A stretch of 34,753 nt of DNA. Source: Levilinea saccharolytica (GTDB taxonomy: Bacteria; Chloroflexota; Anaerolineae; Anaerolineales; Anaerolineaceae). Every line of letters begins with the position of its first letter. The first letter of the stretch is position 1. Positions 1,016-34,519 of the stretch are shown piece by piece. The notes below the pieces were generated by a model. The model was not told the DNA's origin and ran no database searches. It saw nothing but the letters and a program-made list of their open reading frames with translations. A program made the translations under genes and the position numbers. The stretch lies in NCBI RefSeq assembly GCF_001306035.1, contig NZ_LGCM01000011.1:1-34753 (forward strand), in the 5' to 3' direction.

Positions 1016-2092
1016 ATGCTCCAATTCATCACCCGCCGTCTACTCATGCTCATCCCGGTCCTCATCGGGATTGTCCTGGTCACTTTTGTCATCGTCCGGC
1101 TGATCCCCGGCGATCCCTGTTATGTGATGCTCGGGGAAAAAGCGACCGCTGAAAAATGCGACGAGTTCAAAGCCCGTTACGGACTCGATGACAGCATCCC
1201 TGAACAGTTTATCCGCTATATGGGCAACCTGCTCCAGGGTGACTTCGGCACCACCATCCGCGACCGCCGCCCAGTGATTGATGTGGTTGCCGAACGGCTG
1301 CCCCTCACCATGGAACTCACCTTCATGGCCATCCTCTTTGCGTCGGTGGTCGGCGTCACCTTCGGCGTGATCGCCGCCCTCAACCGCAACAGCTTTTTGG
1401 ATGTGGCCACCATGATCATCGCCAATATCGGTGTGTCCATGCCGGTCTTTTGGCTGGGGCTGCTGCTGGCCTACCTCTTTGCCCTGATCCTAAAAGACAC
1501 CCCCTTCTATATCCCCCCTTCTGGGCGGCTCTCTTCGGGCATCTCTCTGGTGCCCCTGGCCAAAACCTGGGGACTGGAAGATTGGACCGGTGTGCCGCGT
1601 TTCCTGCTTTCGCTCATCTCCAATTCCGCCATCCTCAACGGCATCCTCACCGGTAATTTCAAGCTGGTCAAAGATGCCATCTGGCATCTGATCTTACCGG
1701 CCACCGCCGTTGGCACCATCTCCATGGCCATCGTGGCCCGCATGACCCGTTCCAGCCTGTTGGAGACCCTTGGCCAGGATTACATCCGCACCGCACGCGC
1801 CAAAGGGTTGATCGAACGCCTGGTCATCATCCGCCACGCTCTGCGCAACGCCCTCATCCCCATTGTCACCATCATCGGTCTCCAGATCGGCGGCCTGCTT
1901 TCGGGCGCTGTTCTCACCGAAACCATCTTTGCTCTCCCCGGGGTCGGCTCGCGCATGGTGGAGGCCATCCTCTCCCGCGATTATCCGGTCGTCCAGGGCT
2001 TTTCCCTCCTGGTCGCCTTTGTCTTCGTCTTCACCAATTTGTTGGTGGATGTCTCCTACGCCTATCTGGATCCCCGCATCCGTCTGGAATGA
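1016..2092 (+). CDS. ABC transporter permease, DppB type
   Basis: Inner-membrane permease of the binding-protein-dependent peptide/nickel transport family (BPD_transp_1). The 358-residue protein starts with a membrane segment (about residues 9-30), followed by the periplasmic GDPC...EFKARYGLDDSIPEQF region typical of the DppB branch, and has further hydrophobic segments in the C-terminal half. The cytoplasmic EAA loop is visible at about residues 258-285 (TARAKGLIERLVIIRHALRN). It is slightly longer than usual because of extra sequence at about 160-225 between membrane segments. ATG 1016 was chosen because the family N-terminus MLQFITRRLL starts there; the ribosome site is weak. It lies 154 nt downstream of the binding-protein gene and 3 nt before the second permease gene. 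The substrate (peptide or other) cannot be read from the sequence. Confidence 0.93.
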   Translation: MLQFITRRLLMLIPVLIGIVLVTFVIVRLIPGDPCYVMLGEKATAEKCDEFKARYGLDDSIPEQFIRYMGNLLQGDFGTTIRDRRPVIDVVAERLPLTMELTFMAILFASVVGVTFGVIAALNRNSFLDVATMIIANIGVSMPVFWLGLLLAYLFALILKDTPFYIPPSGRLSSGISLVPLAKTWGLEDWTGVPRFLLSLISNSAILNGILTGNFKLVKDAIWHLILPATAVGTISMAIVARMTRSSLLETLGQDYIRTARAKGLIERLVIIRHALRNALIPIVTIIGLQIGGLLSGAVLTETIFALPGVGSRMVEAILSRDYPVVQGFSLLVAFVFVFTNLLVDVSYAYLDPRIRLE

Positions 2093-2095
2093 CCC

Positions 2096-3022
2096 ATGAG
2101 CCAGGAAAATAACATCGCTACCATAACCAAAGAACCGCAGAATTCTCCAGCCCGCGAATCGCTCCGGCGTTTGCTGCGGCACCGCTCCGCGCAGATCGGC
2201 ATGTTCATCCTCGCCGTGCTCATCCTCACCGCCATCTTCGCCGAACAAATCGCCCCCTTTGACCCAATTAAGCCGCTCAAGAACGTCAAACGGCGCGATA
2301 CCCCCTGCGTGCACCTCCTGGGCTGCCCCAAAGATGCCCAACAGCATTTGATGGGCATTGACGGCAACAGCCGCGATCTCTTCTCCCGCATCGTCTTTGG
2401 GTCGCGCCTTTCCCTGCAAATCGGCATTTCCACCATCAGCTTCGCCATCCTCATCGGCGGCCTGTTGGGAGCCGTGGCTGGTTTCCTGGGCGGGTGGATT
2501 GACGACGTGATCATGCGCTCAATGGACGTGCTCATGGCCTTTCCAGCCTTGCTGCTGGCCATTGCCATCGTTTCCGTGCTGGGCACCGGTCTGATCAACG
2601 CGCTCATCGCTATTGCCATTGTGTCCATCCCGCGCTATGCCCGCGTGGTGCGCGCCAGCGTCATCTCGGTCAAAGACCTGGATTTCGTCAACGCCTCGCG
2701 CGCTCTGGGGGCTTCGAACCTGCGCCTGCTCTTCACCCGCATCCTCCCCAACGCCCTCACCCCCCTCATCGTTCAAGGCACGCTGGGCATTGCCGAAGCC
2801 ATCCTCGAAGCCGCAGCCCTTTCCTTCCTGGGCCTGGGTGCCGAATTCCCCACCCCCGAATGGGGCCTGATGCTCGGCGAAGAGCGCAACAGCGTCTTCA
2901 ACGCCCCGCACCTGGTGTTCTTCCCTGGCCTGGCCATCATGCTCACCGTGTTATCCTTCAACCTGTTTGGCGACGGTCTGCGCGACGCCCTCGACCCGCG
3001 CTTACGCGGCGGGGCAGTATAA
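2096..3022 (+). CDS. ABC transporter permease, DppC type
   Basis: Second membrane permease of the peptide-type transporter, expected to pair with the preceding DppB-like protein. The 308-residue protein has an N-terminal cytoplasmic segment, a first membrane helix at about residues 36-56, the family signature LMGIDGNSRDLFSRIVFGSR and an EAA loop at about 200-226 (ASRALGASNLRLLFTRILPN). The start ATG follows the DppB stop by 3 nt, which suggests translational coupling. The C-terminus DALDPRLRGG is typical of DppC. No ATPase genes (DppD/DppF) follow; the operon closes with a hairpin terminator at 3056. The ATPases must be encoded elsewhere or be shared with another transporter. Confidence 0.93.
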   Translation: MSQENNIATITKEPQNSPARESLRRLLRHRSAQIGMFILAVLILTAIFAEQIAPFDPIKPLKNVKRRDTPCVHLLGCPKDAQQHLMGIDGNSRDLFSRIVFGSRLSLQIGISTISFAILIGGLLGAVAGFLGGWIDDVIMRSMDVLMAFPALLLAIAIVSVLGTGLINALIAIAIVSIPRYARVVRASVISVKDLDFVNASRALGASNLRLLFTRILPNALTPLIVQGTLGIAEAILEAAALSFLGLGAEFPTPEWGLMLGEERNSVFNAPHLVFFPGLAIMLTVLSFNLFGDGLRDALDPRLRGGAV

Positions 3023-3055
3023 GTGCTTTGGTTGTACAGACGGCAAGATGATTTT

Positions 3056-3091
3056 CGACCGGCGGCTGATCACCGCCGGTCGCTTGTTTCT
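3056..3091 (+). terminator. Terminator after the permease operon
   Basis: Perfect 10-bp stem (CGACCGGCGG at 3056-3065, CCGCCGGTCG at 3073-3082) with a 7-nt loop, followed by CTTGTTTCT. It lies 34 nt after the DppC stop. The T tract is interrupted, so termination strength is uncertain. Confidence 0.65.
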
Positions 3092-3111
3092 CTCGCACCC
3101 CTGGCTATAAT
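3084..3111 (+). promoter_or_regulatory. Predicted promoter of the macroglobulin gene
   Basis: A perfect -10 box TATAAT at 3106-3111 is preceded by TTGTTT at 3084-3089 with a 16-nt spacer. It lies directly after the permease terminator and about 100 nt before the macroglobulin start, so that gene is probably transcribed on its own. Confidence 0.55.
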
Positions 3112-3220
3112 AAAAGTAAGCTTTGGGAACCCTTTTCCCTGCGGCAGCGTCCTAGTTCCAACCCCCATTCTTCGGGGCATCTTTTTCTGCCTGCATGGCA
3201 GCAAGATCATGAGGAGCACC

Positions 3221-6200
3221 ATGAAACCCTCCCCCTTCTCCCGCCCAACCCGCGCCTGGGCTGCCTTCTTCTCCATTTTTGTCATCATCAGCCTGGCTTG
3301 CGCTTTGCCCGGCTTCTCCCGCCCCACACCCACCCCCGCGCCAGCCGCCCAGGCCCCCGCGGCGGCCCCCACAGCGCTCCCCACCGCCGCGCCGCAGGCC
3401 TCACCCACCCCTCTGCCGCCCATGCCGCCGGTCGTGGCCGAAATTGTGCCTTCCCCTTCGGATGCGCTGCCCCTCAAATCCGCCCTGACCCTGTATTTCA
3501 GCCAGGACATGCAGCCCGAATCCGTGCTTTCCGCAGTGACCCTCGACCCGCCCATCACCGGCAAATTTGAATGGCTCGACCCGGCCACCCTCAGCTTTAT
3601 CCCCGCCGAGGCCCTGCCCCCCTTCACCTCCCTCACCCTCACCGTGGCCGCCGGGGCACAGGCCGCCAACGGCCTCAGCCTGCAGGAGCCTTTCTCCGCC
3701 GCCTACCGAACCACCGAGCCGCTGAAAGTGGTGCAGCAGCTGCCCCCGCCTTACAGCACGGGCATCAGCCCCCAATCCGCCGTCTCCATCACCTTCAGTC
3801 AGCCCATTGTGCCCCTGGGCCAACCCACCGAAGACCTGCCGCCCGCCTTCACCCTCTCCCCCGCGGTGGAAGGCCGCGGCGAATGGCTGAACACGGATAC
3901 TTACGTGTTTTACCCCAACCCGGCTCTCTCCGGCGGGGTGCAGTACACCGCCACCCTCACCCCCCAGTTCGCTGCTTTGGCGGGTGTACCCATTTCCGCG
4001 GATGCAACCCAATGGAATTTCACCGCCGCCCCGCCCAAGCTCATGCAAACCGCACCCACTTCCTCCAGCCTGCTCTTCCTGGACCAAATCTTCACCCTGG
4101 GTTTCAACCAGCCCATGAATCCATCTAGCCTGGAAGAGAAAGTGTCTCTGCGCGGCCCCGATGGAAGCGCCTTCCCGCTGAAATTCACCTGGAGCGAAAA
4201 CAACTCGCGCGTCGAGATCCAGCCCACCGTGCTGCTGCCGCGCAGCACGGTGATCACCTTCGCCCTGGAACCCGGCGCGCTCTCGGCCGGGGGCGTGGAG
4301 TTGGCAGATTCCTTCTCCCAACCTTACACCTCCTCAGGTAACCTGACCTTCTCGCTGGGCAGCCCGCGCGCCGGGGAACGCCTGATGCTCTACGGCGGCT
4401 ATTCCTCCGTCAACATTCAGGCCAACCTGCCGCTGGCCCGCCAGGAGATTGATTCCAAAATCACCATCCAACCTGCCATTGACGGCCTCAATCTCAACCT
4501 CTATAACCAGCGCCAAACCATCTCCCTCAGCGGGTATTTCCAGCCGCAGACCAATTACACCATCACCTTCGATGCCTCGCTGCGCGACGCTTACGATCAG
4601 CCCCTCGGCCAGAACCAGACCATCACCTTCTCCACCGCGCCCGTTTCGCCTACCCTACGCATCCCTTCTATCTATTTGGGCAGCGGAGTCCTCTTCTTGC
4701 CAGCAGACCAAAAAACCCTGGCCGTGGAAGCCGTCAACCTGAAAAACGCTGCTGTCTCTGTGACCCCCATCACCCTGGGCGAGATGATCAATCTCACGCT
4801 GCGCCACACCCCCGGCCAGCAGATGAACTTATCGGCCCCCGCCACCACCTGGGCCAGCCCCATCAACGCCCCCGCCGACCGCTACCAGATGTTTGACCTG
4901 CCTCTGACCCCCACCGGGGACGCCCTGAGCACCGGCTTATATTGGCTGGATCTGGGTTCGCCGGAGTTGGGTGAGAACGCAGGCTTCGTGCACCCCGTGG
5001 CCCTGGCCGTTTCTAACGTACACCTCACCCTCAAACGCAGCGCCACCCAGGTCACCGTTTGGGCCACCGACCTGACCACCAACACCCCCATCCCCAACCT
5101 CAACGTGCAGTTGTGGGACTACAACGTGCAGAACCTCGGCTACGCCGTCACCGACGCCCAGGGCATCGCCAAATGGGATGTCCCCGTCACTTCGGCCATC
5201 GATTCAACCCTCTTTGCGCTCTCCGGTGCGCCCGGCGCCGCCGATTTTGGCATCGCCTATTCCGGTTGGTCCTACGGCATCAGCGGCTGGCAGTTCGGCT
5301 ATGAAAACACGCTGGAAAAAACCGGCCTGAGCGCCTACCTCTACACCGACCGTCCCATCTACCGCCCTGGTCAGCAGGTTTTCTTCCGTTCCATCTTCTA
5401 CCGCAAAGATAACGGCCGCTATACCCCGCCCGACATCCCTTCCGCCACCCTTTCCATCCTGCGCGGCGATTATTATGACTACGACCAGCCCGATGCTCAG
5501 CTGGCCTCCATCCCCATCCCCCTGGATTCGTTTGGGGCCGGCAGCGCCGCCTACACCCTGCCCAAAGACCTTCAGCCCGGCCGCTACACCCTCTCCATCA
5601 CCAGCCCGGAAGAGGTCAACAGCAGCCTGGTCATCACCGTGGCCGAGTACCGCAAGCCCGAAGTGGAATTGACCGCCGCTTTCGCCTCACCCGACCTGAC
5701 CGCCGGGCAGCCCCTGCAAGCCGAGGTCAAGCTGCGCTACTACTTTGGCACACCCGCCGCGGGGGTCAACGTCAACTGGTCTCTGTATGCCCAGCGTGAT
5801 CATTTTGCCCTGCCGGGCGGCTATGTCACCGGCAAAACCTACCGCGGGGTCAGCGCCTTTGACGCTGCCCCCTACTCCCCGCTGGGGAGTTACCTCACCT
5901 CCGGCGCAGGCCTCACAGACCCCGAAGGTCTGCTGAAGGTGGAGCTATCCCCTGAGGAGCTGGCGGATCTGCTCGACTCCGAAATGCGCTATATCCTCAC
6001 CCTCGAAGCCACCATCGCGGACGAGAGCAACTTGCCCGTCAGCACCCGCGCCCAGGTCACCCACCACCCCCAGACCGTGTACGCTTCCGTGCGCCCCGAT
6101 GCCTGGAATGCAGTTGCGGGCCAGGAAAGCGGCTTTTCCGTCCTGACGGTGGACCTCAAAGGGCAGCCAGCCGGTAATCGCAAATTACAGGCCGTCTTCA

Positions 6201-9200
6201 GCCCGGCCCGCTGGGAATACGGCCAATCTCCCGACCAGGATTGGCAGTTGGTCGTTGCCCCCGCCGTCAGCACCGCCGATTTTGTCACCGATTCAGCCGG
6301 ACGCGCCCGTTTGGCCTTCACCCCGCCCACCCCGGGTACGTATTTGCTGCAAATCCGCGGTGAGGCCGCTCCCGTGGATGTGTTCCAATGGGTGGTGGGC
6401 GGCAGCGGTGCGCTTTGGCCGCGCCTGCCCGATCAGCGCCTGGAACTGCGCAGCGACGCTGAAACCTATACCTCCGGCCAGAGCGCCCGCGTGCTCATCC
6501 CCAACCCCTTCAACGGCCCCGCCCTGGCCTGGGTGACGGTGGAGCGCGCCAAAATCATGCGCTCGCAGGTCATCACCATCGAAGGCGCCAGCCAGGAATT
6601 CACCCTGACCCTGACGCCCGAGGACGCGCCGAATATCTATGTCGCCGTCACCCTCCTGGGGCGCGATTCCAGCGGCCTGCTGGATTTCCGCCAGGGGCTC
6701 ATCGAACTGCGCGTGGATCCCAAAGACCTGCTGCTCTCCCTCACCCTCACTGCCGACCCTCCTCGCGCAGCCCCCGGCAGCCCGGTGAACCTCTCGCTGA
6801 AGGCTGTGGATTCCCAGGGTCAGCCGGTGCAGGGTGAATTTTCCATCGCCGTGGTGGATAAGGCCGTCCTGGCCCTGGCCGAGCCTAACGCACAGCCCAT
6901 CCCGCAGGCCTTTTATAAGCCTCAGCCCCTGGGCGTGCTCACCAGCATCCCCCTCACCGCCTACGCCAACCGCTTCAAGCCCGTCGCCTTAGGCCGCGGC
7001 GGCGGCGGAGGCGCCGGGGATATGGGCCCGGGCAGCGTCCGCGAAAAATTCCAGGATACCGCCCTGTGGGAAGGCAGCCTGCGCACCGACGCTTCCGGAC
7101 AGGCCTCCCTGCGCCTGACCCTGCCCGATAACCTCACCACCTGGGTAGTCACCGCCCGCGGCCTGGACGCTGCTCACCGCGTGGGTGAGAGCGAAACGGA
7201 AATTGTCACCTCCAAAGATCTGCTCATCCGCCCCGTCTTGCCCCGCTTTGTGATTGCGGGCGACCATCTGGAACTGGCCGCCGTGGTGCATAACAACACC
7301 AATCGCGAACTGGCCCCCGAAGTCTCGTTGACCGCCGCCGGCTTCACCCTGGACGATCCCGCCCAGGCCTCGCGCCGCGTACAGATTGGCCCCGGTGAGC
7401 GCCTGCGCCTGGCCTGGTGGGGCACGGTGCAGGATGTGACCGAGTTGGATCTGCTCTTCAGCGCTGCCGCCGAAAACCTCTCCGATTCCGTGCGGCCTGA
7501 ATCCGGCACCCTGCCGGTGAACCAGTACACCGCCAGCCAGACCTTTGCCGCCGCCGGAACCCTGGCCGAGGCGGGCGAACGCGTGGAGACGCTTTCTCTG
7601 CCCCGCTCCTTCAACGTCACCAGCGGCGAGCTGCGTCTGGAGCTGACCCCCTCGCTGGTTTCGGCCCTGCTCAGCAGCCTGGATGTGCTCACCAACCAGA
7701 CTCTCCCCGGCGACAACCCCGAAATGGTCCTATCGCGCCTGCTGCCCAACCTGGTCACCTATCAAACCCTCTCCACAATGGGTCTGGATATGGCCAGTTT
7801 GCAGCGCAGGCTGCAAAACCAGCTGCGCCCCGACCTGAACCGTCTGCTGGATCATCAGAACCCCGACGGCGGATGGGATTGGTCGGGCGACCGCGATGAA
7901 TCGGATCCCTTCCTGTCGGCCTACGCCTATTACACCCTCACCCAGGCCCAATCTGCCGGTTTCACCACCCCCAGCTACAACCTGGACAACGCCTACGCCT
8001 ACATCAGCGGTGTATCGCAGCGGCCGCTGCCCGAAATCACCGAACGGAATACCGTTCAAGAAGAGCTGCATGTCTTCTTGAACTTTGTGCTGTGGGAAAC
8101 CCGCGGCGAAGTCTCGCCTCATCTGGATGCGTTGGTCGAGCGCCGCGCAAACCTGGCGCCCTGGGCGCAGGCCATGCTCGTCCCCTGCCTGGTTCTGCCC
8201 GAACAAAACGACCAGCGCCTGACCCTGCTCTCCGATCTGGAGACCCTGGCCGTGCGCTCGGCCACCGGCGCCCATTGGGAAGCCCCCGCGCCCAACGGCT
8301 GGGCCCTCACCTCGCCCCACTTTAACACCGCCCTGGCCGTCTATGCCCTCTCCCGCTTCAAATCCGACTCGGTCGTTCTGGAAGACGCCGTCCGCTATCT
8401 GGTGGCTAACCGCAGCCCGCAGGGCATCTGGTCTTCTCAATACGAAACCGCCTGGATCCTCCTGGCGCTGAACCAGTACGTGCTGGCCACCAATGACGTC
8501 AACGCCGAATTTGCCTTCTCCGCGGCCTTCAACCAGACCCCAATTCTGACCGGGCAGGCCGCCGCGGGCCAAATTCCCGCCCCGGTGTCTGCCAACCTGC
8601 CTCTCAGTCAAATCAGCGCCAACTCCTCCAACCAGCTCACCATCCAGCGCCAGGCGGGCACAGGGCGGTTGTATTACCGCGCCTATCTGCAGGTCAACCG
8701 CCCTGCCGCCGAGGTTCCCCCCATCCGCCGCGGGCTGAGCATCTCGCGCCAGTTCTTCCTGACGGGCCAGGACTGCCGCACATCGGCCTGCCAGCCGGTC
8801 ACCTCGGTGATCATCGGCCCGCAGCCGTCCACCATCTACGTGCGCCTCACTCTCACCCTGCCCCACGAGATGAATTACCTGGTGGTGGAAGATTTCGCCC
8901 CCGCCGGAGCGGAGATCGTCAACCCGGCGCTGAAAACCACCCAGCAAGGCGTCACCCCCACCTACACGCAGAACCCTCCCAGCCTGGAAGAAGGTTGGGG
9001 CTGGTGGTGGTTCAGCCGTCCACAGGTGTACGACAACCGCATCCGCTGGACGGCGCGCCAACTGCCCCCCGGCACCTACCAGCTCACCTACCGCCTGTCC
9101 CCCTACCTGCCGGGTGAGTTCCGCGTGCTGCCCGCCCACGCCTACCAGCTGTACTTCCCCGAAATCCAGGCCTCTTCCGGCGGCAGCATCTTAGAAATCA

Positions 9201-20685: not shown

Positions 20686-21117
20686 GGCCTGGGCAACGAA
20701 CTCGACGGAGACGACGCCGCCGGGGTTCTGGTGGCGCGCCGCCTGATGCCCCTGGCCGCCCCTCACCGCCTCATCCTGGATGTCGGCCCCGCCCCCGAAA
20801 ACTTCACCGGCCCCCTGCGCCGCTTTGCCCCCGATTTCGTCCTGCTGGTCGACGCCGCCCATCTGAATCAACCCCCCGGTACCATCGCCTATGTGGATTG
20901 GCAGGATGTGGACGGCCTCTCCGCCTCCACCCATTCCCTGCCGCCTTCCGTTTTTGCCAATTTTCTCATCAGCCAGCTCAACTGTCAGGTGGGCCTGCTT
21001 GTCATTCAGGCCGGCCATCTGCAATTTGACCAGCCCCCCTCACCCGCCGTGCAGCGCGCCGTGAAGCGCATCACCGCCGGGCTGAGCGAGCTGCTCACCC
21101 AAATTCCCGCTGCCTGA
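20668..21117 (+). CDS. hycI: [NiFe] hydrogenase maturation protease, HycI-like
   Basis: Endopeptidase that removes the C-terminal tail of the hydrogenase large subunit after nickel insertion. The family signature GLGNELDGDDAAG is at the N-terminus. With TTG 20668 as start (149 residues), the predicted nickel-sensing residues are D16, D62 and H89, almost the same numbering as in E. coli HycI, which supports this start. An alternative ATG at 20554 would add 38 residues inside the ferredoxin-like gene. The start lies in the loop of a 14-bp hairpin and has no clear ribosome site, so coupling to upstream translation is likely. Its substrate should be the DPCFSCNDR tail of the large subunit in the same operon. 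Confidence 0.88.
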   Translation: MRLALVGLGNELDGDDAAGVLVARRLMPLAAPHRLILDVGPAPENFTGPLRRFAPDFVLLVDAAHLNQPPGTIAYVDWQDVDGLSASTHSLPPSVFANFLISQLNCQVGLLVIQAGHLQFDQPPSPAVQRAVKRITAGLSELLTQIPAA

Positions 21118-21169
21118 CCGCCGCATCACAACCGCCGTTTTCCGCTCACAATCCCATTGGAGGCTTATG

Positions 21170-22102
21170 ATGAACGCCTCAGCCGCCCCCTTGCCGCCGC
21201 TGCAATTGGCCGCTTATGTGGCCCCTGGTCTGCTGGAGCGCCAGGGTATCTTCCTGGCTGCCAGCCTGCGCGCCTTTGGCCAGCACCTGGCGGGGCTGCC
21301 CCTGCGCTTCTACTGCCCCTGCCCCCCGGCCGATTTTGCCCCCCAGGCCCTGCGCATCTTTCAGGACTGCGGGGTGACGCTCTGCCCGCTGTCCATCCCC
21401 ACCGCCCTGCTGGAATTTCCCTACGCCGCCAAAGTCTTTGCCGCCGCCCAGGCTGAGGCGGACGTGCTGCAGGCTGCCGATCCGCCCACTCTCGTCTGGC
21501 TGGACCCCGACACCTTCTTCCAAAAAGCCCCCCTGGCTTTTGCGCTGCCGCCCTCAGCGGCCCTGGCTTACCGCCCCGTCATGCACAACGTCATCGGCCC
21601 GCTGTACGGCCAGCCCCTGGACGCATTTTGGGAGACGATCTTTTCCGCCTGCGGCGTCCCCCACCAGCGGCTTTTCCCCATGCAGACCGTCATTGACCAG
21701 GTGCAGCTTTACCCCTATTTCAACGACGGGCTGTTGGTGCTGCGTCCGCAGTTGGGCCTGCTGCACGCCTGGCTTCAGGAATTCACCCGCCTCTACCAAC
21801 ACCCCGATCTACTGCCGCTGTACGCGCACAAACGCCTGTACGCCATTTTCGTCCATCAGGCCGTCTTGGCCGGTGTTCTCCTCGCGCGGTTAGCGCCGGA
21901 ACAAATGCTGCTGCTCCCGCCGGACCATAACTACCCACTGAACCTGTACGCGCGCGACCAAACCCCCAACCGCCCCGCACGCCTGGAACCCCTCACCACC
22001 TTCCGCTTCGAGGACGTGTTCGAAAATCCCGCCTGGGAAGAGGGCTTCCCCGCGGGGGCCGAGCTGCGCGCCTGGATCCGCCAATGGATCTTTTGGCATT
22101 AA
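21170..22102 (+). CDS. Glycosyltransferase-like protein of unknown substrate
   Basis: A 310-residue soluble protein starting at ATG 21170, 6 nt after GGAGG (21159-21163); ATG 21167 is an alternative. Weak marks of a GT-A nucleotide-sugar transferase: LVWLDPDTFF (about 108-117), resembling a DxD metal motif, and YFNDGLLVLRP (about 184-194), resembling the GT8 family. The protein is rich in Pro and Leu and has no signal peptide or membrane helix. It lies 52 nt after hycI, on the same strand and with no terminator between, so it may be transcribed with the hydrogenase operon, but a functional link is not evident. Confidence 0.55.
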   Translation: MNASAAPLPPLQLAAYVAPGLLERQGIFLAASLRAFGQHLAGLPLRFYCPCPPADFAPQALRIFQDCGVTLCPLSIPTALLEFPYAAKVFAAAQAEADVLQAADPPTLVWLDPDTFFQKAPLAFALPPSAALAYRPVMHNVIGPLYGQPLDAFWETIFSACGVPHQRLFPMQTVIDQVQLYPYFNDGLLVLRPQLGLLHAWLQEFTRLYQHPDLLPLYAHKRLYAIFVHQAVLAGVLLARLAPEQMLLLPPDHNYPLNLYARDQTPNRPARLEPLTTFRFEDVFENPAWEEGFPAGAELRAWIRQWIFWH

Positions 22103-23194: not shown

Positions 23195-23539
23195 ATGGCA
23201 TCTCTGCTGCTCACCAATTTGCTGCTGTCCGCCCCTTTCCTGGCCCTGTGGAGCATCGGCGGAATCATGGCTGTTCTGTGGCGCAAGCGCCTGACCAAAG
23301 CCGTCTTCCTGTTAGCCCTCATCGGCTGCGCCCTGCACCTCCTCCACACCCTCACCTTTGGCCTCTTCGGCAGTGCGTTGCCCATGATGATGATGCAGGG
23401 CCGTTCACCCACATCCCAAATCACTATGGTTTCCGCCGGGGTAGGGATGATCGGCCAATTGCTGAATCTCATCGCCAGCGCCCTGCTCGTGGCGGCCATC
23501 TTTGCCGGGCGCAACGCAGCAGTCTTCGCTCAGGATTGA
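23195..23539 (+). CDS. Small membrane protein of unknown function
   Basis: A 114-residue protein with about three hydrophobic helices (about 3-27, 33-62 and 83-107). Basic RKRLTK follows the first helix. The loop LPMMMMQGRSPTSQ has four consecutive methionines. No family is recognised. GAGGA lies 7 nt before ATG 23195. The M1 peptidase gene starts 3 nt after its stop, so they are probably co-transcribed, and it could act in the same membrane context, but nothing shows what it does. Confidence 0.7.
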   Translation: MASLLLTNLLLSAPFLALWSIGGIMAVLWRKRLTKAVFLLALIGCALHLLHTLTFGLFGSALPMMMMQGRSPTSQITMVSAGVGMIGQLLNLIASALLVAAIFAGRNAAVFAQD

Positions 23540-23542
23540 TGT

Positions 23543-25039
23543 ATGAACATGCGCAAATCACCCACCCTTTTGGCGTTGACCGCAGCTCTGATTTTCAGCC
23601 TGGCCTGCACCTGCAGCCTGCCCGGCTTCCTGCCCGGCCGCCCCACCCCTACCCCGCGGCCCACCCTGCCGTCTGAGCCTCCCACCCCGCGCCCCACTGT
23701 GTCAGACGCGGGCAGCACGCCCACCCCAGGCCCCGCCCTGGACCCCGCCACAGCCCCCCTGCGCACCATCGGCGACCCTTACGCCCCCCACCTCGGCAAT
23801 TCCGGCTATGATGTCCAATCCTACCGCCTGGAATTCACCCTGGATCCCCCCGCCCGCTTGCTGCGCGCCGCCGTTACCATCGAAGCGCTCAGCACCTTCA
23901 GCTCCCTGGATGAAGTCTGGCTGGATTTTATCGGCTTTGACCTGCAATCTGTGCAGATGGACGGCCAGGAGCTTCCCTACACCCGCGCCGAAGATAAGCT
24001 TGGCGTCACTCTTCCCCGCCCCATCCCCTCCGGCCAACCCTTCACGCTCACCTTCCGCTACACGGGCACGCCCGAACAGCGCCGCTCGCCCTACATCCCC
24101 TTTGCCCCCGCCCTGGGGATGCTCTTCAGCCCCTCCAACGATGTCTTTGTGGCCTCCGAGCCAGACGGCGCGCGTTTTCTGTTCCCCTGCAACGATCACC
24201 CCCGCGACAAGGCTGCCTACGTTTTTGATCTCACTGTCCCGCCCAACACCCTGGCCGCCGCCAACGGCAAACGCACCCTGGCCGCCGAACCGGTGTACGG
24301 CGGGCTGCGCTTCGTGTGGGAGCATCCCCAGCCCCTGGCCACCTCCATGGTCACCATCGTGGTCGGTAATTACACTCTGATTGAATCCACCTCCCCCGCG
24401 GGCGTGCCCATCCGCTCCTATATCTTCCCCGAACTGGAAGACACCTTCCGGCGCGAATCCGCCACCAGCGGCGAAATGTTGGATTGGATGAGCGAAAAAT
24501 TCGGCGATTACCCCTTTGACGAATTCGGCTATGCCACCATCCGCGGCCTGAACGCCTCGCTGGAGACTCAAACCCTGATCCTCATGGAAGAGCAGATGCT
24601 GTCCGAAGAGGTGATGAGCCATGAGATGGCCCACATGTGGTTTGGCGATTGGGTCAGCCCGGCCTCCTGGGGAGAAATCTGGCGCAATGAGGGCTTTGCC
24701 ACCTACTTCAGCCAGGTGTGGATGGTCAAAGACGACCCCGAGGATCTGCAGGCCGTGATGGACGCCTATCAAGAGGCAGTCCAGTCCAACCCGGCCTCTT
24801 ATCCGCTCAATAATCCGCCCCCTGGTGAGATGTTTGGCATGAACAGCTATTTGAAAGGCGCCCTTCTGGTGCATGATCTGCGCAAAACCCTAGGCGACGA
24901 GGATTTTTACGCCGGGCTGCGCCTGTATTTTGAGCGCTACGGCGGCGGCTCGGCCAGCGACGCCCAATTCCAGGAGGTGATGGAAGAGGTCTCTGGGCAG
25001 GATCTGGACGCCTTCTTTGCCCGCTGGTTCAGCCCGTGA
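23543..25039 (+). CDS. M1 family zinc metallopeptidase, lipoprotein
   Basis: A 498-residue surface aminopeptidase-like enzyme of the gluzincin (M1) family. Signal peptide with lipobox-like SLACTCSLPG near residues 20-29, then a Pro/Thr-rich linker (about 30-70) as in the macroglobulin of this window. The N-terminal beta domain includes LEFTLDPPARLLRAAVTIEA (about 94-113). The catalytic site is complete: H360-E361-x-x-H364, then E383 in NEGFATYF, exactly 18 residues after the second histidine, as required for M1. The GAMEN-type exopeptidase motif is not clearly present (LETQTLILMEE). There is no C-terminal helical domain, so it is shorter than classical aminopeptidase N. It starts 3 nt after the small membrane protein gene. 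Confidence 0.9.
   Translation: MNMRKSPTLLALTAALIFSLACTCSLPGFLPGRPTPTPRPTLPSEPPTPRPTVSDAGSTPTPGPALDPATAPLRTIGDPYAPHLGNSGYDVQSYRLEFTLDPPARLLRAAVTIEALSTFSSLDEVWLDFIGFDLQSVQMDGQELPYTRAEDKLGVTLPRPIPSGQPFTLTFRYTGTPEQRRSPYIPFAPALGMLFSPSNDVFVASEPDGARFLFPCNDHPRDKAAYVFDLTVPPNTLAAANGKRTLAAEPVYGGLRFVWEHPQPLATSMVTIVVGNYTLIESTSPAGVPIRSYIFPELEDTFRRESATSGEMLDWMSEKFGDYPFDEFGYATIRGLNASLETQTLILMEEQMLSEEVMSHEMAHMWFGDWVSPASWGEIWRNEGFATYFSQVWMVKDDPEDLQAVMDAYQEAVQSNPASYPLNNPPPGEMFGMNSYLKGALLVHDLRKTLGDEDFYAGLRLYFERYGGGSASDAQFQEVMEEVSGQDLDAFFARWFSP

Positions 25040-28034: not shown

Positions 28035-28038
<4 letters not shown>
27832..28038 (-). CDS. Small zinc-ribbon membrane protein
   Basis: A 68-residue protein with an N-terminal zinc ribbon (CRYCGRDIPEEATFCWYC, residues 8-25, two CxxC pairs) and one C-terminal membrane helix (VWVWVLVGLSVVVVIASLLA, about 47-66). 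The start overlaps the valS stop by 4 nt; an in-frame ATG at 28025 gives a protein starting MKKCRYCG. It is co-transcribed with valS and its function is unknown. Short ribbon-plus-helix proteins are common in Chloroflexota, but I know of no assigned role. Confidence 0.8.
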
Positions 28039-30737
<2,699 letters not shown>

Positions 30738-30780
30738 CTCACACCTCATTCATCGAAAATAGAAAATTCCAAAGCGGTTA

Positions 30781-30816
30781 AAAACAAAACAACCTCCCAT
30801 CCCTGAGGACGAAAGG
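30781..30816 (-). terminator. T-box leader terminator
   Basis: On the minus strand, CCTTTCGTCC and GGATGGGAGG (plus coordinates 30807-30816 and 30793-30802) form a 10-bp stem with three G-U pairs and a TCAG loop, followed by TTGTTTTGTTTT. It lies directly after the T-box motif and is the terminator that the antiterminator competes with. Confidence 0.8.
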
Positions 30817-31062
30817 CTGCCTTCCGCGGTACCACCTCATTTCGCCAGCACGCACACTGGCGCTCTCTGCCCAGGACCATCATCCCGGCCTCGCGCTAAC
30901 GGGCTCACCCGTGCCGTTCTACTCACCGCGGGGCGGTTTTCTTCGGCAGTCCTCGCCAGACGACTTCAGCGCGGCGTTCCCTGTGGAGGCTCACAGCCCA
31001 AGACCTCCTTCTCTGACAGGTCGCCCGCGGCCTACTCCTTCTGGCCTATGGGGTATTGAATT
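30781..31062 (-). promoter_or_regulatory. T-box riboswitch controlling valS
   Basis: The minus-strand leader between the promoter and valS carries the T-box signature GAGGTGGTACCGCGG (plus 30824-30838), which pairs with the uncharged tRNA acceptor end. A terminator hairpin follows. Upstream are long stem-loops forming stem I (about 30950-31055). The likely specifier is GUC (valine), read in GAAGTCG at plus 30961-30967, in the position expected on the 3' side of stem I. When uncharged tRNA-Val accumulates the leader should antiterminate and raise valS and the small ribbon gene. The motif is seen; the specifier is inferred. Confidence 0.9.
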
Positions 31063-31068
31063 GCAGTC

Positions 31069-31096
31069 ATTATATCACGGAATCCGCGGATTTCAA
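31069..31096 (-). promoter_or_regulatory. Promoter of the valS leader
   Basis: On the minus strand, TTGAAA (31091-31096), a 16-nt spacer and TATAAT (31069-31074) preceded by TGA, giving an extended -10. It overlaps the stop codon of the truncated upstream reading frame. Confidence 0.75.
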
Positions 31097-31221
31097 GCAC
31101 GCCCCGGCGTGCCCTGGGCTTCGTCCTGATCCAGCTCATTGGGGATGGGGTCGGCCAGCCACACCGCCTTGATCTTCGCCTGGAGGTAGGTTTTCAGGAA
31201 CTCGGTGATCGAGCCTTCCAC
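31093..31221 (-). pseudogene. 3' remnant of an unidentified gene
   Basis: A 42-residue reading frame (starting as VEGSITEFLKTYLQAKIKAV) reads like the C-terminal end of a real protein: normal codon use, a helix ending in TEFLKTYLQAKIKAVWL, then DPIPNELDQDE and a stop. It has no good start codon or ribosome site (GTG at 31219-31221 is only the first possible one) and its upstream side ends against the repeat cluster, 7 nt from the 46-bp repeat copy. I do not recognise the parent family. The simplest reading is a gene cut by repeat-mediated deletion. Confidence 0.55.
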
Positions 31222-31228
31222 GTGTCCC

Positions 31229-31274
31229 CTCTCCCCTCCGGCAGATGCCATGTGAGGGGTGAATTCCTCTCCCC
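31229..31274. repeat. 46-bp direct repeat, copy 1
   Basis: Identical over 46 bp to 32247-32292. It contains CTCTCCCCTCCGGCAGATG and TGAGGGGTGAATTCCTC. The two copies flank the ASCH gene and lie about 1.02 kb apart in the same orientation, so recombination between them could delete or duplicate that gene. Confidence 0.9.
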
Positions 31275-31545
31275 CACAGCTAGACGCCGGGTGAGGGCGG
31301 GTTTCCTCTCCCCTCCGGGGAGAGGCTAGGTGAGGGGCAGCGCTCCTCTCCCCTCCGGGGAGAGGCCAGGTGAGGGGGCTCCCCTCCGGGCAGACGCCGA
31401 GTGAGGGCGGGTTTCCTCTCCCCTCCGGGGAGAGGCTAGGTGAGGGGCAGCGCTCCTTTCCCCCCTGGGGAGAGGCTAGGTGAGGGGCAGTGCTCCTTTC
31501 CCCTCCGGGGAGAGGCTAGGTGAGGGGCAGCCGGGTGAGGGGGCC
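31229..31545. repeat. Cluster of about eight palindromic repeats, 36-40 bp period
   Basis: Tandem units beginning near 31229, 31265, 31305, 31345, 31379, 31415, 31455 and 31495. The core is CCTCTCCCC, three bases, then GGGGAGAGG, followed by CTAGGTGAGGGG; the best units (31305, 31345, 31415, 31455, 31495) match almost perfectly with 40-bp spacing. A second subtype carries GCAGACGCCG in place of the second arm. Such REP-like units are frequent in Chloroflexota, but several in strict tandem are unusual. The inter-core segments are short and not variable, so it is not a CRISPR array. Confidence 0.9.
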
Positions 31546-31579
31546 ATTCTCGTCTAGCGCGACATCAAGAAATCTGGTA

Positions 31580-31963
31580 TTACTGATCTGCCTCCTCCAC
31601 CTCAAACAAGTTCAGCCGTCCTGGCATAGGCCGAAATGGCAAAGCTACAGGATTCCGCAGAACAAACCCATAACATCCAGGCTCGTGCCAACCCTCAGGG
31701 TCATCTGGCTCCATCGTACAATCCACCAGATCCACCATACCAACGATACCTCCCAGCGGCAAGTCTTCTGGAATATCAATACCCGCCTCACTCGCCATAA
31801 TTGAGCGATACTCCTTCATATCCTGAGCGTTAAAATCGAGTTTCCCACTCGCGTGTATCAATAATTTACCGCGGTAACTTGTTTTCCAGGTGCGATTTTC
31901 AATATCTTTATAGCCATTCACAATCAACCACGCCCACGGCTGACGTATGCTAATCGCTTTCAT
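31580..31963 (-). CDS. ASCH domain protein
   Basis: A 127-residue protein with the ASCH fold, an RNA-binding relative of PUA domains. The N-terminal signature MKAISIRQPWAWLIVNGYKD is followed by IENRTWKTSYRGKLLIHASG, and the C-terminal half includes GGIVGMVDLVDC and a conserved-looking GCYGFVLRNP. ATG 31961-31963 has AGGAGC 7 nt upstream; an upstream in-frame extension to 32041 has no homology. Its base composition is visibly AT-richer than that of all its neighbours and it is bracketed by repeat clusters, both signs of transfer. ASCH proteins bind RNA or modified nucleosides; the exact role is unknown. Confidence 0.88.
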   Translation of the reverse strand: MKAISIRQPWAWLIVNGYKDIENRTWKTSYRGKLLIHASGKLDFNAQDMKEYRSIMASEAGIDIPEDLPLGGIVGMVDLVDCTMEPDDPEGWHEPGCYGFVLRNPVALPFRPMPGRLNLFEVEEADQ

Positions 31964-32246
31964 TTTTTTGCTCCTATGTATGAAATGCTTCAAATTTTCT
32001 AGTACAAACAACAGAAAAATTGGGGGTTGATTTTCTGACATTCCTCCCTAACGATAATTATACAGCGTTCTGTTTTTTTCCGCCCGCACAAGCAATGATC
32101 AAGAATCCTATACAGGCTTGGCAAGATTCACGCACCCCCTCTCCCAACCTCTCCCCTACGGGGAGAGGAGTTCAGTCCCGCCTACACAGCGCGCCCCCAC
32201 TGAAGAGACCTCAAAAGAACGATGTACAGGGCGATTCAGACCACTT
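31964..32246. other. AT-rich upstream region of the ASCH gene
   Basis: No gene is seen here. On the minus strand TATAAT lies at 32057-32062 but without a good -35. A single palindromic unit sits at 32148-32168 (CCTCTCCCC, three bases, GGGGAGAGG). The rest is AT-rich without clear structure. Confidence 0.6.
32148..32168. repeat. Single palindromic repeat unit
   Basis: Isolated copy of the CCTCTCCCC...GGGGAGAGG core between the ASCH gene and the second repeat cluster. Confidence 0.8.
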
Positions 32247-32382
32247 CTCTCCCCTCCGGCAGATGCCATGTGAGGGGTGAATTCCTCTCCCCTCTGGGGA
32301 GAGGTTAGGTGAGGGGGCTCCCCCACGGGGAGCGGGTGAGTGGGAATTCCTCTCCCCTATGGGGAGAGGCCAGGAGAGGGGC
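32247..32382. repeat. Second repeat cluster, about four units; includes 46-bp repeat copy 2
   Basis: Units begin near 32247 (46-bp copy 2, 32247-32292), 32284, 32320 (degenerate) and 32349. The last unit runs into the 3' end of the lipoprotein gene and supplies its final codons and stop (32357-32382). Confidence 0.85.
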
Positions 32383-33751
32383 CCCGCACCCCCCACACCG
32401 TGATGCTCCCATCCTCACCGCCCACCAACAGCACGCGTCCCCCCAACCCAAACGCCGCGCTGGTCACCGCCCCCTGCCCCCCCGCCAGCGCCGTGCGCTC
32501 CCCTGTGTCCACGGCAAACAGCGCCAGCCCCCCCTCCGGCGTCACCACCGCCAGCAGCGACCCATCCGCGCTGAAGACCAGCCCGCCCGGCGCGTTCGGG
32601 AGAAAAGGCAGCAAAGGATCAGCCCCCGGCTGCGAGAACACATCCTCGCGCGTATACGGCTCCGCCGTCCACAGCAAGGAGTGGTCGCTGAGGTCGTACA
32701 GCTCCAGCCGATTGCCCCAGCGCAGCACCGCCAGGCGCTGCCCGGCCGGGTCGGGCACGGCCGTGATCACATTCCCGCGCCAATCCGCCAACAGCCAATC
32801 ATCTATCAGGCTGCCGTCCTGCGCCCGCCGCAGCTCCACGTGAATTTTCGGCAAGGTCGGCACGCTGTTCTCCTGCACGGGCGGCGCCGTCCCCGCTGCC
32901 GCCTGCTCCTGCCACACCAGCCCGGCCGTCTCCCCGTCCGCCAGCAAAAACACCTGCGCACCGCGGGGCGCTTCCCAACCGGCCATCTGCTGCGTGCCGC
33001 GGAACAGCCCCACCCAGCCCTTGCGCTCGGATGTCTCCGCCGCCGCAAAGAACACGCCCCCCTGCGGCGCGTAGCCCACCTGGGTCACCGTGCCGGGTAT
33101 ATCCAACGCCTGCGGCTGCCAATCCGGCCCGCCGCGCCAGATGAAAGCTCGCCCCGCCGAAGCGCTCACCCACTCCTCGCCGCGCGCATCCACCCCCAGG
33201 TGCTGCGCCCCCCAGCCCGCCCCCATCTGCGGGATCTCCGGCGCCGGGTAACAGGTGGTCACAGGCGGCGGCTGCGGCAGCGGCTTGGGCGCGCTGAACT
33301 GCACAGTGATGCAGCGCGGCGTAGATGTCGGCACAGGCGGCAGGGCCAGCACCACGCGCACCTGCCCGTCGCGCACCGCCCCCACGCGGATATCCCCATC
33401 CGCCTCCAGCGCCAGGTAATCCTCCCCGCCGGGCGCCGTCCCCAACCCCCGCACCTCCTCGCCGCCCTGCCACACCGCCAAAACCGCCAGGCGTGCGGCG
33501 TTTTCCGCCGAGATGACTTCCTGGGGCAGCTCCAACCAGTCTCCCATCGCCAATGGGGTGGGCGTGGGGGTCTGGCTGGGGGTCAGGCTGGGCTCTGGGG
33601 TGGGGGTGGGAGTAGGAGTCTGGCTGGGAGTCAGGCTGGGTTGGGGGGTAGGCGTGGGCGTGGGGGTGGGATCGGGCCGCAGCGCCGGCAGTCCGCAGGC
33701 CGCGGACACCAGCCACAAAAAGATCACCGCCCAGCGCCAACCCGTTTTCAT
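32357..33751 (-). CDS. Beta-propeller-like lipoprotein, 3' end provided by a repeat
   Basis: A 464-residue surface lipoprotein. Signal peptide MKTGWRWAVIFLWLVSAAC with lipobox cysteine at residue 19, then a Pro/Thr/Ser-rich linker (about 27-67) containing two near-identical PSLTPSQTPTPTP blocks. The rest is made of WD40-like or YVTN-like blades, for example HSLLWTAEP, GLVFSADGSLLAVVTPEGGLAL (split here by one blade) and TSAAFGLGGRVLLVGG, ending DGSITVWGV. ATG 33749-33751 has GGGAGGG upstream; an upstream in-frame start at 33787 would hide the signal peptide. The last residues GPSPGLSP and the stop are encoded by a repeat unit. No partner is evident. The fold is inferred from motifs. Confidence 0.8.
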   Translation of the reverse strand: MKTGWRWAVIFLWLVSAACGLPALRPDPTPTPTPTPQPSLTPSQTPTPTPTPEPSLTPSQTPTPTPLAMGDWLELPQEVISAENAARLAVLAVWQGGEEVRGLGTAPGGEDYLALEADGDIRVGAVRDGQVRVVLALPPVPTSTPRCITVQFSAPKPLPQPPPVTTCYPAPEIPQMGAGWGAQHLGVDARGEEWVSASAGRAFIWRGGPDWQPQALDIPGTVTQVGYAPQGGVFFAAAETSERKGWVGLFRGTQQMAGWEAPRGAQVFLLADGETAGLVWQEQAAAGTAPPVQENSVPTLPKIHVELRRAQDGSLIDDWLLADWRGNVITAVPDPAGQRLAVLRWGNRLELYDLSDHSLLWTAEPYTREDVFSQPGADPLLPFLPNAPGGLVFSADGSLLAVVTPEGGLALFAVDTGERTALAGGQGAVTSAAFGLGGRVLLVGGEDGSITVWGVRGPSPGLSP

Positions 33752-33859
33752 CGGCCCTCCCCGCCTCCGGTGGGTTTGAATTCCCATTTCATCCTAGCAC
33801 ATTTCCACGCCGGAACAAAGCACCTTTTGCCGTCAGGAGGCAGAGGCCCGCGCGCTTTG

Positions 33860-33898: not shown

Positions 33899-34519
33899 AT
33901 GTCTCAACCCCAATGGCTCACCTGGGCGCAATCCCTGCAATCCATCGCCCAAGCCGGCCTCACCTATGCCCAAAATCCTTTCGACCTGGAGCGCTACGCC
34001 GCCCTGCGCGACCTGGCCGCCGAGATCGTTGCCCATCAGGCCGAAGTTGACCCAACTCAGATGCACGAGATCTTCCTGCACGAGGCCGGGTACCCCACCC
34101 CCAAGGTGGATGTACGCGGGGTTGTGATTCAAGACGGCCAGATCCTGCTGGTGAAAGAGCTTTCCGACGGCGGCTGGACTCTGCCCGGCGGCTGGGTGGA
34201 TGTGAACGAGCCGCCCTCGCGCGCCGTGGAACGCGAGGTGTGGGAAGAATCCGGCTACCAGGTGCGCGCCGCCCGCCTGCTGGCTCTCTACGACCGCAAC
34301 CTCCACGGTCACCCGGCGCACATCTTCCACATCTACAAGCTCTTTTTCCTGTGCGAGCTCACCGGCGGCGCCCCGGCCGACAGCATCGAAACCGCGGGAG
34401 CCAGCTTCTTCTCCCCCCAGGCCTTACCGCCCCTCTCGCTGGGCCGCACCACCCCCGAAGAGATTGAGCGCATGTTCGTGCTCCATCAAAACCCCGCCTG
34501 GCCTACCGATTTTGATTAA
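33899..34519 (+). CDS. NUDIX hydrolase with N-terminal accessory domain
   Basis: A 206-residue hydrolase of nucleoside diphosphate derivatives. The full NUDIX box is seen at about residues 98-120: GGWVDVNEPPSRAVEREVWE followed by ESGY, fitting GX5EX7REUXEEXGU. Residues 1-65 match the helical N-terminal domain (Nudix_N type, ADP-ribose pyrophosphatase YjhB group) that often precedes such enzymes. ATG 33899 has AAGGAGG 5 nt upstream. A much longer open frame reaches back over the lipoprotein gene to about 32309, but only the part from 33899 has homology. Substrate not determined; ADP-ribose is typical of relatives. Confidence 0.93.
   Translation: MSQPQWLTWAQSLQSIAQAGLTYAQNPFDLERYAALRDLAAEIVAHQAEVDPTQMHEIFLHEAGYPTPKVDVRGVVIQDGQILLVKELSDGGWTLPGGWVDVNEPPSRAVEREVWEESGYQVRAARLLALYDRNLHGHPAHIFHIYKLFFLCELTGGAPADSIETAGASFFSPQALPPLSLGRTTPEEIERMFVLHQNPAWPTDFD

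Follow-up and report, generated by a model that had tools for sequence, protein, structure and literature searches.

The window, that is, the whole stretch of DNA that was analysed, is the entire 34,753-bp contig C27 of the draft genome of Levilinea saccharolytica (G000; 4.23 Mb, 65 contigs, contamination 4.94%). In the region studied, valS, the gene of an essential tRNA-charging enzyme, and its T-box leader (together 28035-31058) are followed by two repeat clusters with an ASCH-domain gene between them, and then by a WD40-like gene (32357-33787) and a Nudix hydrolase gene (Table 1). The Rfam search gave no match at the gathering threshold, and the T-box appears only below it. The sole same-genus genome among the 147 family genomes, G068 (estimated contamination 8%), carries a valS that is 97% identical and a WD40-like gene that is 85% identical to that of the window. 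Close to where the next gene begins, the final 117 bases of the contig (34637-34753) diverge from G068; they are partly AT-rich and may belong to the end of an insertion sequence.

Table 1. Features of the valS-Nudix region, with positions in the window
Feature	Position	Strand	Basis or remark
valS	28035-30749	-	left anchor
T-box leader of valS	30802-31058	-	RF00230, 72.8 bits, E 2.1e-15, under the gathering score of 93
Shortened ORF, 52 codons (G068: 108)	31093-31251	-	
Left repeat cluster	31223-31544	+	~40-bp units plus 110-bp higher-order duplication
46-bp direct repeat, copy 1	31229-31274	+	exact match to 32247-32292
Triplex-motif unit (stem, stem, third strand)	31305-31336	+	motif scan
Triplex-motif unit	31345-31376	+	motif scan
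Triplex-motif unit	31415-31446	+	motif scan
25-bp marker, also adjoining the left unit in G068	31545-31569	.	local alignment; blastn
Block without counterpart in G068	31570-32246	.	677 bp; GC 47.5% (GC and searches on 31571-32246)
ASCH-domain gene, 127 aa, phage-type	31580-31963	-	PF04266; phrog_3193
Triplex-motif unit, inverted orientation, within the ASCH block	32137-32168	-	motif scan
Right repeat cluster	32247-32382	+	
46-bp direct repeat, copy 2	32247-32292	+	exact match to 31229-31274
Triplex-motif unit	32284-32315	+	motif scan
Triplex-motif unit overlapping the 3' end of the WD40-like gene	32349-32380	+	motif scan
WD40-like gene, lipoprotein-like start	32357-33787	-	right anchor; WD40 models, all under their cut-offs
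Nudix hydrolase gene	33899-34519	+	

The preliminary description had pointed to a 46-bp direct repeat, and its two copies are indeed identical and in the same orientation. They are one pair among about a dozen related units, if degenerate ones are counted. A longer exact repeat, the longest of all at 57 bp (31291-31347 and 31401-31457), lies within the left cluster, where tandem periodicities of about 40 bp and 110 bp are seen together with a higher-order duplication of 110 bp (31269-31377 versus 31379-31487, 91% identical). All exact direct 25-mer repeats of the 34.7-kb window fall inside 31200-32400, and none was found outside this interval. The canonical unit follows the pattern CCTCTCCCC-nnn-GGGGAGAGG-nnn-GGTGAGGGG, which reads CCTCTCCCC-TCC-GGGGAGAGG-CTA-GGTGAGGGG in the window, and is built as a hairpin with a third stretch behind it, a mirror image of the purine arm. 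When folded as single-stranded DNA, the left cluster does no better than its shuffles (z -0.98), 17 of 100 of which did as well.

A 70-base query containing the 46 bp was matched at full length on this contig only. The strict core of the repeat occurs at seven places in its own genome, six of them in this window, and in 11 of the 147 family genomes, its own included. A looser palindrome core is present in 144 of 301 genomes sampled from the phylum, with 1 to 796 copies, and the reversed control pattern reaches at most 8 copies in the same sample. The maximum of 796 belongs to a genome of about 4.5 Mb (G428), and the runner-up among the 301 has 241. In another motif-rich genome, of the same order (G171:C1; L261, L262, L263), the palindrome sits in a longer unit, both flanks of which are alike in four of the six listed copies; this unit looks like a larger repeat element.

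Judged by its letters, the window repeat is of a known type. Holder et al. (2015) described a bacterial G/C-rich intrastrand-triplex motif (TM, TMECO; earlier PIT motif) and linked it to genome instability (PMC4666352); our literature search retrieved no second paper on such a motif. The motif is defined by three successive stretches that can combine into class II triplets, with stems of 6-15 nt and loops of 1-6 nt, and the window units contain three stretches that would form such triplets. Our scan, which used an 8-nt stem and thus counted the ninth pair as loop, found six motifs with 0 bad triplets in 8 (five on the plus and one on the minus strand), and none in 20 mononucleotide shuffles of the window. 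The exact E. coli consensus CCCTCNCCCN3-6GGGNGAGGGN3GGGNGAGGG, which describes an E. coli subset, has no match in the window; elsewhere in the same genome it occurs once on contig C9 and four times on contig C13.

The window units share with the motifs of Holder et al. the order of pyrimidine stem, purine stem and third purine-rich strand and the same GGTGAGGGG end (PMC4666352). Like those motifs, the window units are mostly intergenic and their site varies between close relatives, but the motif loci of this genome, taken together, give a mixed picture on both points. According to that paper, the motifs of E. coli K-12 are always intergenic. In the window they are intergenic, except that the last one runs into the end of the WD40-like gene, and on C13 they lie in frame within a DNA methylase gene. 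They differ in having nine triplets, versus ten in most E. coli units of Table 1 of Holder et al., and in forming tandem clusters with 40- and 110-bp periods. In addition, a phage-type gene stands between the units here, whereas Holder et al. report no mobility genes, phages or plasmids at their motifs (PMC4666352). They found nothing in favour of a stable triplex inside living cells; their comparative part is built on E. coli strains, with the mechanism left open, and the main text does not contain the string 'chloroflex'.

The occurrence of short palindromic units in clusters is also a feature of REP and BIME sequences (PMC3733652), and mobilisation of REP elements by a REP-associated tyrosine transposase (RAYT) was considered, all the more as two Y1_Tnp matches over the cut-off exist in the same genome. 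PMC3733652 describes RAYT-associated REP elements as palindromes tagged at one end with GTAG or CGTC; the canonical units of the window have no such tag at their ends, and the only occurrences of its letters are CTAC, in the loop of one hairpin (32156), and GACG, in two degenerate units (31283, 31393). Moreover, no triplex motif was found around either Y1_Tnp gene (L001, L002, L228). With the tag missing from the unit ends and the units not near Y1_Tnp genes, we rejected this origin, which appears highly improbable.

The gene between the clusters is, as had been noted before, AT-richer than its surroundings: its GC content is 48.4%, versus 62.1% in the window and 62.9% in valS, and its third-position GC is 49% versus 82% in valS. 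The start codon is preceded by AGGAG. The ASCH domain (PF04266) was recognised with an E value of 9.2e-6 and 26.7 bits against a Pfam cut-off of 21.2, the gene having been scanned as a 153-aa frame (31580-32041), and residues 1-124 of the 127 match the phage family phrog_3193 (E 8.2e-47); the NCBIfam search gave the protein no name. Homologues are rare in the family, being present in eight of 101 genomes, its own included, and the three best full-length matches in the others are 48-52% identical. The database relatives among the matches listed are 41-58% identical and come from many phyla, with Chloroflexi MAGs among the better hits, and frequently from viral contigs, and 145 of 50,697 phage records contain a match, all under 60% identity. 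In contrast to the ASCH proteins of phages, this one is encoded by a lone gene on the chromosome, with valS on one side and the WD40-like gene on the other. No phage genes were recognised among its tested neighbours, and it is the sole ORF of the block recognised as a gene.

The preliminary description had proposed, as an alternative to an insertion hot spot, that a small element was moved by recombination between the repeats. A mobile unit of this kind, in which the flanking repeats allow the ASCH gene to travel by recombination or transposition, would account for a block that is present here and absent in G068 and for the 46 bp common to the clusters on both sides. However, neither G000 nor G068 contains a second copy of the block, where only matches of 40 bp or less were seen. 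The ends of the block have no terminal inverted repeat beyond that of shuffles and share at most a 4-nt match. The block thus shows neither the terminal inverted repeats nor the further copies, and no target duplication, by which a transposable element is recognised, and it offers ASCH as its only recognised gene. The repeat was also sought, by its exact pattern, at 167 ASCH loci elsewhere, namely seven in the family (L052-L058), 80 in genome contigs (the best 80 of 121 matches) and 80 in viral sequences (the best 80 of 326), and was found at none; because the exact pattern was used, degenerate units would be missed. On these counts we rejected ASCH plus repeat as a travelling module, and the mobile-element explanation as a whole is very unlikely.

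The corresponding site in G068 (L059) has its flanks in common with the window up to 31222 on the left and from 32349 on the right, and G068 has no ASCH homologue. Between the flanks lie a unit at about 7497-7535, the marker stretch, an 87-bp spacer (7560-7646) and a second unit at about 7647-7682, that is, one unit on the left and one on the right, versus the expanded clusters of the window. The local alignment that reveals the shared marker covers 31529-31569, including the end of the unit, and blastn gives the same range at 87.8%; the MAFFT alignment of the junction misplaced the middle part. Because the site has two units and a spacer of its own, it does not look like the product expected of recombination between the 46-bp copies.

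About 125 bp to the left of the first unit of G068 are missing from the window, as a result of which a small ORF is shortened. It has 108 codons in G068 (L059 7243-7569), and the window frame starts inside the repeats. The 'truncated gene' seen earlier beside the repeats is thus indeed shorter than its counterpart, but since the frame occurs only in G068 among 32 valS loci of relatives, it is uncertain whether 31093-31251 is a gene at all. On the other side, the WD40-like protein extends eight residues (GPSPGLSP) beyond the end of the G068 protein, at the place where the last triplex unit overlaps its gene.

These 32 valS loci (L022-L050, L061-L063) include three genomes twice, and many are cut by contig ends and have mostly 1.5 kb of flank; no ASCH match was found at any of them. 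Besides G068, six other genomes of the family have a Nudix gene near valS, all of them without ASCH there; Nudix would be the ancestral neighbour of valS. For G101, G108, G069 and G051 the match covers most of the Nudix protein; the matches in G057 and G062 are partial and lie at the locus boundary. The four genomes with the fuller match have divergent valS and Nudix genes, separated by about 0.4-0.5 kb with neither the WD40-like gene nor ASCH in between; from the edge matches only, the spacing is similar in G057 and about 1.4 kb in G062. The same interval measures 2.3 kb in G068 and 3.15 kb in the window. The scan detected no triplex motifs at the loci of G108 (L267), G101 (L268) and G069 (L269), and the exact pattern detected no repeat at that of G051 (L028). 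Since ASCH is missing from G068 and from the six further valS-Nudix genomes, it was probably gained rather than lost, and a gain would also make the shorter history. The comparison with relatives for which the preliminary description had called accordingly speaks for the insertion hot spot proposed there: the ASCH gene is neither present at the same place in all relatives nor of ordinary composition.

The opposite course, in which an ancestral ASCH gene was lost from G068 by deletion between its repeat units, is unlikely. The direct units that flank the G068 site are an arrangement able to delete DNA, but a deletion would leave one unit, and G068 has two together with the spacer; the six further genomes without ASCH beside valS argue against it as well. 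Nor does the spacer match the block convincingly: its score on one strand was reached by 40 of 200 shuffles, and an 18-column gapped match on the other strand by 2 of 200, so that homology of the two, on present alignments, is not convincing. An assembly artefact, in which the repeats joined unrelated DNA, would be conceivable in a draft of this contig number and contamination, and the right junction does fall at a repeat. However, the left junction falls within unique sequence, 25 bp past the repeat and behind the marker that also adjoins the left unit of G068, which leaves this explanation extremely improbable.

The evidence on the repeat as a cause of variation is mixed. Among the four motif loci of the genome that were compared, the window and C13 differ from G068, C9 shows no change across 5 kb at 97%, and on C12 the two motifs start about 370 bp past the end of synteny. 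On C12 they form a pair in opposite orientations (L060, G000:C12:238000-243000, 2278-2446), where G068 has a different AT-rich stretch. The C13 units are tandem within the DNA methylase gene, as three copies of 36 bp and three of 39 bp with diverged neighbours, versus none and one in G068. Within that gene (PF01555, E 6.8e-31; L227, G000:C13:65000-71000, 1496-4630, minus strand) the units are in frame and give tandem peptides of 12 and 13 residues, PLTPPLSQGERE and SPQPSPTGRGSDG, the copy numbers of which differ in G068. This suggests that the motif also alters proteins.

Along the contig, synteny with G068 is interrupted three times in 34.5 kb, and no other indels of 20 bp or more were found inside the aligned blocks. 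Two of the three interruptions (21096-22101 and 23245-23576) carry no motif; the motif is therefore not needed for variation here. The first of them holds a 311-codon ORF (21167-22102) with a GC content of 65%, where G068 has about 130 bp, and would be a second gene gain or loss on the contig.

We interpret the locus, with a probability of about 0.68, as a rearrangement hot spot of TM/PIT repeats, at which the clusters expanded and an AT-rich block that carries the phage-type ASCH gene replaced the spacer between two units. The common ancestor with G068, the relative without the block, would already have had a pair of units in the interval from valS to the WD40-like gene. In the lineage of the window, the left unit would then have grown into the tandem cluster, and further units, the 46-bp copy among them, would have been added on the right, to give the difference in copy number between the two genomes. 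The block of deviating composition, the gene of which is absent beside valS in the outgroups with Nudix, would have taken the place of the spacer. As for the mechanism, repeats of the type recognised here may stall replication or break, slippage or template switching could have produced the copies, and break repair could have admitted the foreign DNA. As the evidence on the repeat as cause is mixed, the step from repeat to insertion is one that we infer.

The locus exemplifies a known class of unstable repeat site rather than a new mobile element; its graded series is unusually clear, and it includes an added gene of phage type. A wider idea, that pairs of triplex repeats serve as landing places where breaks are repaired by capture of phage-derived genes, so that they would feed new genes into chromosomes beyond deleting or mutating their flanks, is doubtful at this stage. 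The series itself, from outgroups without repeats through G068 with two units to this genome with clusters and a gene, extends such observations outside E. coli; it separates the steps from one another, and gene capture at triplex repeats thereby becomes testable.
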